9,228 bases of DNA from Candidatus Mcinerneyibacteriota bacterium (GTDB lineage Bacteria > AUK180 > JAQVHJ01). The position numbers were made by a program, and so were the translations under genes. Where the stretch lies: assembly GCA_030630935.1 (NCBI GenBank), contig DAOVMD010000089.1:1-9228 (forward strand), given 5' to 3'. Positions 2,870-8,172 of this stretch are shown one piece after another. The notes beneath the pieces are model-generated. The model ran no database searches and was not told the DNA's origin. It was given only the letters and a program-made list of their open reading frames with translations. The stretch's first letter is position 1; every line of letters begins with the position of its first letter.

Positions 2870-4351
2870 CTATTTTCCAATAACTTTATAAAACGTTGAT
2901 GGTCCTGAGCTTATTCTTGTTATTAAACTTAAATCAAGAAATTTCTTTAAATGTCTTTCTGCTTGTCTATCGGAATAACCCAATTTTTCAGCATACTCTT
3001 TTTTAGTAATTTTATTTTTACTTCTAATGAACTCATAACCAGCTATTTCTTTAAGAGTTAGGCTCGAGAGCATTTTATCAATCTCTTTTAATTTTTCTAC
3101 TGATCGAGCAAAAGTTAATGAAAGAATTGGTTCATTAAATTTATAATGCGGTAACGGTAAACCATAATTTTCATTCATTAACTTAAATGTTTTCATTCCA
3201 AATTTTTTTCCTTCAACATAATTCATTTTGCTATAAACATACATTATAGCTTTATTTCTACTTAGTGATGGTGCATTAAAATTATTCAATTGTTCTATTG
3301 TAATTGGTTTTATTGGTGGACCGGGACTATTTATAACAATTTTTGAATTATCGATCTCAATACCTATATTTGCTTGCTCAATTTCATAATCCCTATGTAT
3401 AATTGCATTTATAACAGCTTCCCGAATTACAGATATTGGAAAATCAGAAAGGTCTTTTCGCTTAAATTTAGAAGTATCTTTGTGAAAAGGTAGAACCTTA
3501 TTTAACCATTTTTCAATTAAATTTGGTAATAAAACCAAAGGCTCATCAAAATCAATCGATTCAATTTTCTCTTTACCATATTCAATATGAGCTCGAATAA
3601 CAGATTGTGGATATTTTATTCCTGGAGTTTTACTAAATAAAAGATAACCAATGCCCGTTAATTTTTTCTTTTTTTCTTTTTCATCAAGAACTAGAACCCC
3701 CAAATTCACTAGATAATTATAGAACTCTATTGAATTAAATTTAAAAGGTAATTTTGCTTCTTTAATAAATTTTTCTATAGCATCAACAGATAAATCGTTA
3801 ACATTGGTGTTTTTGACACTCTTTCGAATATTAGGAATTTCAATTTCTTTTACCAAACCTGAAACTCTTTGGTTTGCTTGTTCTAAATAATCCGGAATAA
3901 TTTTTTCTATTTTATTTTGAAGATCCCTGTCAAACATTTTTACTTCAACACCACAACTTTCTAAATATCTAATTCCATCTCCTGAAACCGTGGGATCAGG
4001 GTCCTGTACACCAATATATCCTTTTTTAATCCGAGATTTTACAATACGCTTACTACAACCTTGTTTGGGATCATTCCTTTTAACACAAGGCTCTAATGTT
4101 ACAAAAAGAATGCAATTATCAAGGTTTAAAGACAAACATTTACGTTCAAGTAAAGTATACTCAGCATGTTCACCATCTCTCAATTCACCTCTTGCGGCAA
4201 CCTTTATTGAACCATCAGGGAAAAGCAAAACAGCACCCACATGTGGTACAATTTTTCCGTCTTCTCTTAATTCGGGTACTGATTTTGGCATAACTTCAAT
4301 TGCCTGTTCCATGTATTTTCTTGGATCAAATGTTTTTCCTTTCTTTGCCAT
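2870..4351 (-). CDS. Deaminase-ATPase fusion: RibD/dCMP-type deaminase, GHKL-type (HATPase_c_4) domain, winged helix
   Basis: The protein has 493 residues from the ATG at 4351, with GGTGGA about 10 bases upstream. A TTG two codons earlier sits too close to that site. Residues about 1-150 are a zinc-dependent nucleotide deaminase: HAE (H62, E64), then TLEPC (C89) and a cysteine ten residues later (C99) give the expected zinc ligands and catalytic glutamate. The following DPDPTVSGDGI segment resembles RibD-type deaminases. Residues about 195-420 match the region that follows AlbA_2 domains in Schlafen-like/RecG-related regulators: 'LTGIGYLLFSK', 'IREAVINAIIHRDY' (E311 and N315, the likely ATP/Mg site), 'INSPGPP' and a C-terminal GLPLP. 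Residues about 430-493 form a winged helix (YAEKLGYSDRQAERHLKKF). No AlbA_2 domain is present; the deaminase takes its place. No signal peptide or membrane segment is visible, so it should be cytoplasmic. The substrate (free nucleotide, pterin-like compound or nucleic acid) is unknown. A role in phage defence or nucleotide-linked regulation is inference only. Confidence 0.8.
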   Translation of the reverse strand: MAKKGKTFDPRKYMEQAIEVMPKSVPELREDGKIVPHVGAVLLFPDGSIKVAARGELRDGEHAEYTLLERKCLSLNLDNCILFVTLEPCVKRNDPKQGCSKRIVKSRIKKGYIGVQDPDPTVSGDGIRYLESCGVEVKMFDRDLQNKIEKIIPDYLEQANQRVSGLVKEIEIPNIRKSVKNTNVNDLSVDAIEKFIKEAKLPFKFNSIEFYNYLVNLGVLVLDEKEKKKKLTGIGYLLFSKTPGIKYPQSVIRAHIEYGKEKIESIDFDEPLVLLPNLIEKWLNKVLPFHKDTSKFKRKDLSDFPISVIREAVINAIIHRDYEIEQANIGIEIDNSKIVINSPGPPIKPITIEQLNNFNAPSLSRNKAIMYVYSKMNYVEGKKFGMKTFKLMNENYGLPLPHYKFNEPILSLTFARSVEKLKEIDKMLSSLTLKEIAGYEFIRSKNKITKKEYAEKLGYSDRQAERHLKKFLDLSLITRISSGPSTFYKVIGK

Positions 4352-4412
4352 ATACAATATTCCACCACAATTAGCTTTTCATCTATTGATTAAAAAAATA
4401 TTTAATTAAATT

Positions 4413-4441
4413 ATTATAACATACCAACAGAATAAAATCAA
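4413..4441 (-). promoter_or_regulatory. Promoter of the deaminase-ATPase gene
   Basis: On the minus strand, TTGATT (4436-4441) and a perfect TATAAT (4413-4418) are separated by 17 bases. Transcription would start near 4406, giving a leader of about 55 bases. The gene therefore has its own promoter in the 224-base gap behind dnaA and need not be read from the dnaA transcript. Confidence 0.65.
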
Positions 4442-4575
4442 ATAAAATTTAAAAACAATTGATTCTGGATAAGAATTATTTCTGTTCAATAAGAATGTTA
4501 TTAAATAAAGACAAATTTTTTTTTCCAAATCATAAATTAACAAGGTCAAGTTCTTTCAAAAAAAGATATAAAAAA

Positions 4576-5982
4576 TTAATCGCTGCCTTTTAATTCACTG
4601 ATAATATTTTGAATTTGATAACGAATGGGATCATTGGATTCTATTAATCGTTGAATCTTTTTATAGGCATGAATAACTGTGGTGTGATCTCTTCCCCCGA
4701 AAAGTTCTCCTATTTCAGGTAGGGACGCATCTGTAAGCTCCCGGGTTAGGTACATCGCAATTTGACGTGGTAACGCTATACTTTGAGTTCTTTTCTTTGC
4801 TTTTAAATCTGCAACCCTGATATCAAAGTACGTTGCAACGGTTCTCTGAATTAAATCAGCATTTATTTCAGAAGAGTCTTTTTGATGAATAATATCTTTT
4901 AAAATAATCTTTGCATTATCTAAAGTAAGGTCCTTTTTATTTATCAATGTATAAGCAATTACCTTAATTAATGCTCCTTCGAGCTCTCTAACATTAGACT
5001 TAAAACCCTTTGCTATGAAGTTAACAATATCATCAGGGATAGAAACGTTCTCATTCATTGCTTTCTTCTTTAAAATAGCAATTCTGGTTTCCAAATTAGG
5101 TGTCTGTATATCAACCACCATCCCTGAAGCAAATCGGGAAACTAAACGTTCCTGAAGATCGGGGATCTTTTTTGGCGGACGGTCAGAAGTAAGAACAATC
5201 TGCTTGCCACGCTCATATAAAGTATTAAATGTATGAAAAAACTCTTCTTGAGTACCCTTTTTTCCCGTTACAAACTGGATATCATCCATTAATAGTAGAT
5301 CGATACTCCGAAACTTCTTCTTAAATTTAATAATAGAATTGTCGCCATAGGAATAAATAAGTTCATTCATAAATTGCTCAGCTGATAAATAAAGCACCTT
5401 GCAATCCGATTGCTTCTTTAAAACTTCATGACCGATTCCCTGCATTAAATGTGTCTTACCCAAACCAACTCCGCCATATATAAATAATGGATTATAGCTT
5501 TTACCTGGATTTTTCGTAACATATAAAGCCATTCCCTTAGCAAATTCATTGCTGGGACCAACAACAAAATTCTCAAATGTATAATCGTTATTTAACGAGA
5601 CCTTAGGTATAAATGTTGAAGATGATTTCTTTTTCTTAATACTCTCCTTCTTTATACTAATAATCTCATTCTTTACTTGCCGCTCTGTCTTTGATTTTAC
5701 CGGCTTTTCACTTATTCGGAATACTATTGTGAAATCAAGCGGAATTAACCTTGTTAATACATCCGTTATCTGATCCTTGAAATTTGCCTCAATCCAGCTT
5801 TTATAAAAATGATTAGGTACATTTATCTCTAATTGACCATCTTCAAATCTATGTAACTCTAAAGGTCCTATCCAATTTTCAAAAATATGTGGGTCAACCT
5901 TCTTCTCCATCTCATTTATGAAGGTTTCCCAGATTTTTGTTAATTTTTCAACAGTTTCTGCCATTTTTCTCGTGTTATCCAC
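4576..5982 (-). CDS. dnaA: Chromosomal replication initiator protein DnaA
   Basis: DnaA is the AAA+ ATPase that binds DnaA boxes and opens the origin. All four domains are visible, numbered from the GTG at 5982. Domain I is about 14-85, and a lysine-rich linker runs about 90-125. The ATPase domain carries Walker A GGVGLGKTH (170-178), Walker B LLLMDD (229-234) and the RLVSRFASG arginine-finger segment (about 279-287). Domain IV has the box-recognition signature GGRDHTTVIHAYKK (429-442). The length is normal. The start is uncertain: GTG at 5982 lies inside a DnaA box, whereas the ATG at 5964 gives a protein six residues shorter with a weak purine-rich stretch before it. Two upstream boxes and one across the start suggest autorepression. 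A weak promoter candidate (TTGAAT at 6077-6082, TATAGT at 6052-6057, 19-base spacer) is not convincing. dnaN does not follow; the next gene downstream is the deaminase fusion. Confidence 0.97.
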   Translation of the reverse strand: MDNTRKMAETVEKLTKIWETFINEMEKKVDPHIFENWIGPLELHRFEDGQLEINVPNHFYKSWIEANFKDQITDVLTRLIPLDFTIVFRISEKPVKSKTERQVKNEIISIKKESIKKKKSSSTFIPKVSLNNDYTFENFVVGPSNEFAKGMALYVTKNPGKSYNPLFIYGGVGLGKTHLMQGIGHEVLKKQSDCKVLYLSAEQFMNELIYSYGDNSIIKFKKKFRSIDLLLMDDIQFVTGKKGTQEEFFHTFNTLYERGKQIVLTSDRPPKKIPDLQERLVSRFASGMVVDIQTPNLETRIAILKKKAMNENVSIPDDIVNFIAKGFKSNVRELEGALIKVIAYTLINKKDLTLDNAKIILKDIIHQKDSSEINADLIQRTVATYFDIRVADLKAKKRTQSIALPRQIAMYLTRELTDASLPEIGELFGGRDHTTVIHAYKKIQRLIESNDPIRYQIQNIISELKGSD

Positions 5983-5983
5983 A
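5975..5983 (+). promoter_or_regulatory. DnaA box at the dnaA start
   Basis: Perfect TTATCCACA. It overlaps the GTG candidate start codon of dnaA, so DnaA binding here could block its own expression. Confidence 0.8.
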
Positions 5984-6043
5984 TTTTTTGTGTTAGTATT
6001 TTTTTCACAAACACTTTAATAAAATTAAAAAAAATTAAGAAAC

Positions 6044-6080
6044 GAATAAAAACTATATTTTTAGATAGTTGTTTTTATTC
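6044..6080. repeat. Inverted repeat inside oriC
   Basis: GAATAAAAAC (6044-6053) and GTTTTTATTC (6071-6080) are perfect 10-bp complements around a 17-base centre. The stem can be extended past a two-base bulge (TAT with ATA). It ends five bases before the DnaA box at 6086 and lies in the likely dnaA promoter region, so it could be an operator, an unwinding element or a hairpin in the dnaA leader. Confidence 0.6.
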
Positions 6081-6085
6081 AAAAG

Positions 6086-6094
6086 TTATCCACA
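6086..6094 (+). promoter_or_regulatory. DnaA box
   Basis: Perfect TTATCCACA, upstream of dnaA and adjacent to the 10-bp inverted repeat. Confidence 0.85.
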
Positions 6095-6258
6095 ACCTAT
6101 AATTGTTAGTTCCTTCCCAATATCACGGAGGTTATATGCAAGTGTGTTGTTTTTATACACTTAAATATCTACATCATTGAAATAATTAGATTTCTTGAAT
6201 TATTGGGAAAATAACCGAAGATTGTGAAAACCATTACAATCAAGTGTTTTTCTTTACT

Positions 6259-6267
6259 TGTGAATAA
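6259..6267 (-). promoter_or_regulatory. DnaA box, one mismatch
   Basis: The minus strand reads TTATTCACA, one change from TTATCCACA. It faces the perfect box nine bases to its right, giving an opposed pair. Confidence 0.6.
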
Positions 6268-6275
6268 AACGGTGT

Positions 6276-6284
6276 TTATCCACA
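6276..6284 (+). promoter_or_regulatory. DnaA box
   Basis: Perfect TTATCCACA next to the AT-rich stretch at 6300-6375, a plausible place for initial strand opening. Confidence 0.85.
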
Positions 6285-6849: not shown

Positions 6850-8172
6850 ATGGCGAAGAAAGTTATAATTATGGGAGCGGCAGGTCGTGACTTCCACAAT
6901 TTTAACGTTTATTTTCGGACTAACAAGGAATATGAAGTAGTTGCATTTACTGCGACCCAAATTCCGGATATTGATGATCGAAAATATCCCAAGGAACTTG
7001 CTGGTGAATTTTATCCGGAAGGCATACCCATTTATGCAGAGGAAGATCTTAAGGATTTAATAAAAAAACATAATGTAAAGGAAGTTTATTTTTCTTATAG
7101 TGACGTAAAGCATACCTATGTAATGAGGGAAGCCTCTATCGTCCAGGCTGCAGGTGCGGACTTTGTTCTTTTAGGTCCAGCTTCAACTATGTTAAAATCT
7201 AATAAACCAGTAATCAGTATATGTGCGGTAAGAACCGGTTGTGGAAAGAGTCAGACAACCAGAAAGGTTTTGGAAGTTTTGAAGGAAGCAGGGAAGAAAT
7301 GTGCAGTTATAAGGCATCCAATGCCTTACGGTGATTTAGTTGCTCAAAGAGTTCAGAAGTTTAAAACAATGGAAGACCTTGTTAAGTATAAGTGTACAAT
7401 TGAAGAAAGGGAAGAGTATGAACCTCATATTATGGAAGGAAATTTATTATTAGCAGGGGTTGACTATCAAGAGATTTTAAATGAAGCTGAGAAGGAAGCA
7501 GACTTCATTGTTTGGGACGGAGGAAATAATGATTTTTCATTTTTCAAGCCTGATTTAAATATAGTAGTTACCGATCCCCATCGTTCGGGACATGAGCTCC
7601 GTTATTATCCTGGTGAAACAAATTTCCGAATGGCAGATGTTATTGTAATAAACAAGGTTGACACCGCGAAGCAGGCAGGCATTGATGAGATCAAGGAAAA
7701 CATTAAGAAGTTTAATCCTTCAGCAAAAATAGTTATGGGTAACTCTCCCGTTTCTGTTGATGATCCGGAAGCTATTAAAGGTAAGAAGGTTCTGGTAATC
7801 GAAGACGGTCCAACTCTAACACATGGTGAGATGGAATTTGGAGCTGGGTATGTTGCTGCACAGAATTGTGGTGTTAAAGAAATAATTGATCCCAGACCCT
7901 ATGCAGTTGGTTCAATAACTGAAACATATAAAAAATATTCACACGTGAGTAAGATTTTACCGGCTATGGGATATGGTGAAAAACAAATAGCTGAGTTGGA
8001 GGAGACCATAAATAAAGCAGATGTTGATTATGTAGTTGTTGCAACTCCAATCGACTTAGGAAAACTAATTAAAATAGACAAACCATCGGTTCGAGTTCAG
8101 TATAAACTTGAAGAGGTTGGTCATCCTGATTTAAAAGATATTATATCAGAGAAATTTAAAGATATTTTATAA
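6850..8172 (+). CDS. Cyclic 2,3-diphosphoglycerate synthetase-like P-loop GTPase (COG2403 type)
   Basis: A 440-residue cytoplasmic protein. Residues 1-115 form a Rossmann-like N-terminal domain beginning VIIMGAAGRDFHNF and ending near LLGPASTML. A P-loop NTPase domain follows, with AVRTGCGKS (126-134), a likely metal-site segment VWDGGNND (221-228) and NKVD (268-271), the guanine-specificity motif. This order is the one I associate with proteins annotated as cyclic 2,3-diphosphoglycerate synthetase or 'predicted GTPase'. The archaeal enzyme makes the osmolyte cyclic 2,3-diphosphoglycerate, but the role of bacterial relatives is not settled and the name should not be taken as a proven reaction. 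The start is supported by GAGGAG six bases upstream and a promoter at 6769. It is the first gene of a probable operon, seven bases ahead of the SDR gene. Confidence 0.75.
   Translation: MAKKVIIMGAAGRDFHNFNVYFRTNKEYEVVAFTATQIPDIDDRKYPKELAGEFYPEGIPIYAEEDLKDLIKKHNVKEVYFSYSDVKHTYVMREASIVQAAGADFVLLGPASTMLKSNKPVISICAVRTGCGKSQTTRKVLEVLKEAGKKCAVIRHPMPYGDLVAQRVQKFKTMEDLVKYKCTIEEREEYEPHIMEGNLLLAGVDYQEILNEAEKEADFIVWDGGNNDFSFFKPDLNIVVTDPHRSGHELRYYPGETNFRMADVIVINKVDTAKQAGIDEIKENIKKFNPSAKIVMGNSPVSVDDPEAIKGKKVLVIEDGPTLTHGEMEFGAGYVAAQNCGVKEIIDPRPYAVGSITETYKKYSHVSKILPAMGYGEKQIAELEETINKADVDYVVVATPIDLGKLIKIDKPSVRVQYKLEEVGHPDLKDIISEKFKDIL

Follow-up and report, generated by a model that had tools for sequence, protein, structure and literature searches.

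A RibD-fold zinc deaminase joined to the C-terminal half of bacterial Schlafen proteins, a probable accessory anti-phage effector

Bacterial Schlafen proteins combine an SLFN_AlbA_2 RNase domain with a HATPase_c_4 (minimal histidine kinase) region and a wHTH domain. In the accessible portion of a 2026 survey, Schlafen-kinase-wHTH RNases are listed as backup effectors of BREX/BR systems and their N-terminal domain is assigned to tRNA/RNA processing (PMC12839542). No deaminase version of such an effector was found in that portion, where the word "deaminase" occurs in the reference list. A literature search for a deaminase-Schlafen-type fusion or a RibD effector found none in the papers covered; an earlier mention in the 2011 survey of the deaminase fold (PMC3239186) is possible. 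Deaminases act as anti-phage effectors in the AvcD, DcdG and DcdA cytidine-dCTP deaminase defences. Accessory genes inside hsd loci are represented by the PrrC/RloC guards of type I restriction-modification (R-M), and PrrC in a type IC locus is a guard activated by restriction inhibition (PMC12707154).

The protein described here shares its C-terminal half with bacterial Schlafen proteins (HATPase_c_4, the 3lmm fold and a modelled wHTH), and its homologues occupy the same operon slots as Schlafen-type relatives, next to hsd and DUF499/DUF1156 genes. However, the AlbA_2 RNase domain is replaced by a RibD-type deaminase, and since AlbA_2 is what a Schlafen protein has to carry, this is not one. 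Regarding AvcD, DcdG and DcdA, a deaminase effector is proposed here as well, but the C-terminal half is different and no RNA antitoxin was identified. PADLOC did not match the protein to its deaminase defence models (DcdG/AvcD etc.), and the particular likeness to DcdG/AvcD suggested from the letters alone is not supported, nor is dCMP/dCTP as the substrate; the protein is best not classed with that group. What PADLOC did match were pAgo-associated models, along the C-terminal half, and, weakly, one CARF model. An Argonaute system was considered and rejected: the pAgo/SIR2 matches trace to the C-terminal half, through which AlbA_2 proteins match the same models. Like the PrrC/RloC genes, some homologues are accessory genes inside hsd loci and a guard logic may apply to them, but the domains are unrelated, a deaminase here and an anticodon nuclease there. 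One homologue sits between hmaA and hmaB of an Hma system (HmaABC; type-1 BR), although the deaminase gene is not a core Hma gene.

Gene and domain architecture

The gene lies on the minus strand of the window, the whole 9.2-kb stretch of DNA that was analysed. Its ORF is intact, with the ATG at 4351, a stop codon ending at 2870, 493 codons and zero internal stops. The features are:

2870..4351, minus strand: deaminase-GHKL-winged-helix gene (ORF, Pfam, full-length homologues)
3860..4351, minus strand: deaminase domain, residues ~1-164 (Pfam, VIA-align, motif conservation)
3100..3800, minus strand: linker/adaptor and GHKL ATPase-like core, residues ~185-417 (HATPase_c_4, 3lmm_A match)
2873..3090, minus strand: C-terminal winged helix, residues ~421-493 (AlphaFold2 model, weak HTH_24, HTH_DeoR/MarR in homologues)
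4352..4575, minus strand: AT-rich 224-bp gap between dnaA and the deaminase gene (candidate TTGATT-17-TATAAT at 4441-4413)

The sequence-only reading had described one intact 493-residue ORF at 2870-4351; both points stand, the strand being minus, and its numbering of E64 and C89 is correct for the ATG at 4351. It had also read the protein as an N-terminal HAE...PC...C deaminase followed by an EAVxN/HRDY/SPG ATPase region and a winged helix, and each part was recovered. Pfam places dCMP_cyt_deam_1 at residues 12-114 (2e-9), Inv-AAD at 69-151 (1e-10) and HATPase_c_4 (PF13749) at 327-412 (1.1e-10), while HTH_24 at 441-477 stays below the cut-off (0.038) and AlbA_2 (PF04326) gave no Pfam match in this protein. 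The deaminase motifs are HAE at 62-64, PC at 88-89 and C99, and those of the GHKL core are the N-box EAVxN at 311-315, HRDY at 319-322 and SPG at 342-344.

An AlphaFold2 model was built on an alignment of 16 homologues (pLDDT 83, pTM 0.69), and structure comparison of this model with VIA-align recovered a deaminase fold. Residues 6-166 match RibD/RibG structures (Z ~21, 2.3 A, 145 residues), followed as fold neighbours by yeast cytosine deaminase and dCMP deaminase, with the TadA fold also close. Residues 122-417 match residues 136-408 of 3lmm_A (Z 21.7, 3.2 A, 238 residues). This structure is DIP2311, an AlbA_2-HATPase_c_4-type protein, the first ~135 residues of which we take to be its AlbA_2 domain. 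In AlbA_2-HATPase_c_4 relatives, AlbA_2 spans about residues 14-142, so the deaminase occupies the AlbA_2 position; Pfam, VIA-align and the domain layout of relatives thus bear out the domain swap proposed earlier. The modelled winged helix consists of helices 433-445, 450-457 and 461-473 and strands 477-479 and 487-490, and one homologue (L021) has an HTH_DeoR match at 1.2e-5.

Conservation was assessed on 16 sequences, the others being 29-43% identical to the window protein. H62, E64, P88, C89 and C99 are invariant, R54, G60, E87 and R92 are likewise without exception, and so are the GHKL-type E311, N315, H319, R320 and Y322. In its second glycine box the window protein has GKKFG, a poorer motif than the GRGLG-like one found in some homologues. 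As the zinc and catalytic motif residues are invariant in all 16 sequences, the deaminase is very likely catalytic.

Comparison with RibD

The N-terminal domain and RibD/RibG share the fold (Z about 21) and the HxE...PC...C zinc motif, yet the RibD reductase domain is absent from the window protein. At the position of R54 in the deaminase family, RibD has H or T in most cases. Before the first strand the family has mostly SP or DP in place of NP, and its PC-to-C loop is longer and includes R92 and K96. These differences (R54, SP/DP and the longer loop with K96) suggest that the substrate is probably not a riboflavin precursor. Identity with RibD was rejected also by the NCBIfam equivalog model, which scores 53.3 bits against a cut-off of 156.35 and matches only residues 36-158. 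The loci of the family do not lie in riboflavin operons, the context that would have spoken for a biosynthetic role, and the genome of the window has a RibD-like ORF of its own on a different contig.

These comparisons bear on whether the protein works outside defence, as an enzyme of nucleotide metabolism or salvage that carries a regulatory tail (a deaminase like those of the dCMP, guanine or riboflavin pathways). The order of the closest solved folds, RibD/RibG and then yeast cytosine deaminase and dCMP deaminase, would suit such an enzyme, as would the position of the window copy among housekeeping genes. The missing reductase half, the equivalog score of 53 against 156, the genome's own RibD and the altered pocket motifs (invariant R54 against H/T in RibD, SP or DP against NP) argue against it, as do the patchy distribution and the R-M/Hma contexts given below, and we regard it as very improbable.

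The substrate could also be a nucleic acid. The deaminase would then act on tRNA, mRNA or invading DNA as the counterpart of the Schlafen tRNase, an idea that overlaps with the explanation we prefer and differs from it only in the substrate. It draws on the tRNA/RNA-processing role given to the replaced domain in the accessible part of the survey (PMC12839542) and on the proximity of the TadA and cytosine-deaminase folds. Against it, RibD, the closest fold, acts on a small nucleotide, and we hold an editing activity to be possible but rather doubtful.

Distribution and genomic neighbourhoods

Full-length members are rare. They were found in 5/386 broadly sampled genomes including the window's own (4/385 others), in 1/365 genomes of another phylum, and at no fewer than ten loci (at least ten, one incomplete at a contig end) in a scan of GTDB contigs; a family search of 98 genomes from the phylum of genome G028 was empty. 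Those in other phyla are 39-43% identical to the window protein. Searches of plasmids and phages with the full architecture returned, among the matches listed, only C-terminal-half matches and none covering 80%, and the deaminase domain alone gave no match there. In a tree of C-terminal halves, 14 members form one supported clade (100/99), which L021 joins weakly, and record titles from Armatimonadota, Pseudomonadota, Chlorobiota and Bacteroidota are intermixed within it; MAG organism names are used as recorded, and the 'Klebsiella pneumoniae' label of L025 is doubtful. Judged from these sequences, such a rare and patchy spread across phyla is what horizontal movement of the gene would produce.

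Scans of viral contigs yielded zero full-length members. They did show this RGELRxGDHAE deaminase subfamily in two different arrangements, both on prophage-like contigs. One (L120, 7980-8897) has a different C-terminal region and lies near an AAA_21 ATPase gene; the other (L102, 4282-5316) is a 344-aa ORF with the deaminase at the C-terminus and a helical-looking N-terminus. These other partner regions fit a portable effector domain.

Five of 17 loci adjoin or lie within type I R-M, type ISP R-M/GmrSD or hmaABC operons, and two further ones have R-M neighbours, one of them weak (L116). The neighbourhoods are:

L031: hmaA - 7 bp - deaminase - hmaB (methylase, DUF1156) - DUF1016/YhcG nuclease - hmaC (DUF499)
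L028: hsdM-hsdS-AAA_13-deaminase-hsdR
L025: hsdS - 3 bp - deaminase - hsdR
L030: deaminase immediately preceded by Methylase_S and an HSDR_N fragment
L027: type ISP R-M, AAA_13, metallo-beta-lactamase-like gene, GmrSD - 43 bp - deaminase, a single run with 11-43 bp between genes
L115: SfiI-type R-M (SfiI + methylase) ~2 kb from the deaminase
L116: AbiEii upstream and an HSDR_N/MmeI_N-type gene downstream, a weaker case
L022: adjoins an AlbA_2-HATPase_c_4 gene
L023: adjoins Fic

The copies in L025, L027, L028, L030 and L031 are members of R-M or Hma operons and the window copy is not; no defence neighbour was found at L117, L118, L029, L169 or in the window. The hmaA of L031 matches PADLOC HmaA at 6e-188, and the deaminase gene thus lies inside the Hma system. 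AlbA_2-HATPase_c_4 relatives take the same slots, as hsdM-[AlbA_2]-hsdS-hsdR in L053 and DUF499-[AlbA_2]-DUF1156 in L058. L027 and L028 also carry an AAA_13 gene that is RloC-like by eye. In L028, ~105 bp of the start of hsdR are duplicated at 90% identity on either side of the deaminase gene (9727-9963 and 11732-12010). Together with the HSDR_N fragment in the same place in L030, this may be a trace of the entry of the module into hsd operons.

The enrichment near defence genes for which the sequence-only reading proposed a test was observed: R-M genes lie within 6.5 kb at 7/17 deaminase loci and 0/34 RibD loci (Fisher p 1.7e-4), or at 6/17 against 0/34 when L116 is left out (p 6.9e-4), with reference proteins that were drawn from the target loci and so favour them. 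The references were not blind elsewhere, as R-M genes were found with them at independent AlbA_2 loci. The control comprised 34 RibD loci with 465 ORFs, which are housekeeping loci; three (L080, L084 and L099) look like TadA or a misread frame and are still housekeeping.

Control genes are common in R-M loci. The protein could be a transcriptional regulator whose winged helix binds DNA while a nucleotide ligand is sensed or metabolised by the deaminase and GHKL parts; it would control R-M or other neighbours and kill nothing. The C-terminal wHTH is compatible with this, and so are the copies that stand alone (window, L117, L118, L029). A pure ligand sensor, however, would not be expected to keep its zinc ligands and proton-shuttle Glu invariant, and the same C-terminal half is joined to an RNase domain in Schlafen proteins that the accessible part of the survey describes as effectors (PMC12839542). 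We consider a regulator unlikely.

Regarding the window itself, the contig is short (9.2 kb) and the neighbours are dnaA, an IS element, a cPGS-like gene and an epimerase, with zero defence genes. The statement that the gene has no obvious partner is therefore right for the window and wrong for the family, given its R-M/Hma neighbours. The promoter claimed for the gene fared less well: a scan of the region found 10 promoter-like sites against 11.5 expected from shuffles, indistinguishable from chance, and the candidate at 4441-4413 is thus not evidence of a promoter. The ends of the IS element (88-2214) are perfect inverted repeats of 13 bp (TCAACGATTTTTC). It carries two minus-strand ORFs that overlap, with HTH and DDE_Tnp_1, and a partial copy of 95% identity is present at G000:C103. 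Where the two ORFs overlap, a stretch of ~10 T at ~1514-1523, which reads as A on the coding strand, suggests a programmed frameshift. Short repeats TATCCCGACAT, direct and inverted, lie downstream of the deaminase gene at 2726-2797. An oriC-like region at 5975-6284 has three perfect DnaA boxes TTATCCACA at 5975, 6086 and 6276, and the cumulative GC-skew minimum is located upstream of dnaA; the deaminase gene is thus close to a probable replication origin. The large GTPase-like ORF at 6850-8172 has a weak CobW match and, we presume, resembles cyclic 2,3-diphosphoglycerate synthetase. By itself the window copy adds nothing to the functional evidence; perhaps it carries the same module on its own.

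Proposed function

Relatives lie inside restriction and Hma operons, so the protein is probably an anti-phage effector of a kind not yet reported. The reading we favour, and consider reasonably likely, is an accessory effector built like a bacterial Schlafen protein, but with a RibD-fold zinc deaminase instead of the AlbA_2 RNase domain. It would be the deaminase counterpart of the Schlafen-kinase-wHTH backup RNases, with the deaminase held by the GHKL/wHTH half. The copies with no defence neighbour (window, L117, L118, L029 and L169) and the weaker second glycine box of the window protein count against this reading. The anti-phage theme raised by the sequence-only reading is strongly, though circumstantially, supported by the homologues located within type I R-M, ISP/GmrSD and Hma operons; that reading was right on the anatomy and probably on defence. 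Its single-protein defence system is not supported: most of the informative homologues accompany R-M or Hma genes, and this points to an accessory role.

We infer the following course. The GHKL ATPase-like core and the winged helix would form the sensing or holding half and keep the deaminase inactive as long as the adjacent restriction or Hma system is undamaged, or for as long as no nucleic acid of an invader is present. An attack on the neighbouring defence, or the arrival of such nucleic acid, would release the deaminase, which would then attack the nucleotide pool or an RNA/DNA target. This would stop phage growth, perhaps abortively, together with the host. More tentatively, and with somewhat less than even confidence, the family may be a class of R-M/Hma-associated guards, in which the GHKL/wHTH module would keep watch on the restriction complex it partners, or on nucleic acid of the phage, and set free a RibD-derived deaminase to damage nucleotides or tRNA/DNA, the same subfamily being coupled to other sensors in prophages.

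The sensing half of bacterial Schlafen proteins is paired here with a different weapon. Whether this half is a general trigger module can be approached by comparison, as RNase and deaminase versions occur in the same hsd/hma slot and can be set side by side, including the signal that switches them on. If the proposal is true, it would add a RibD-derived deaminase branch to the anti-phage effectors.
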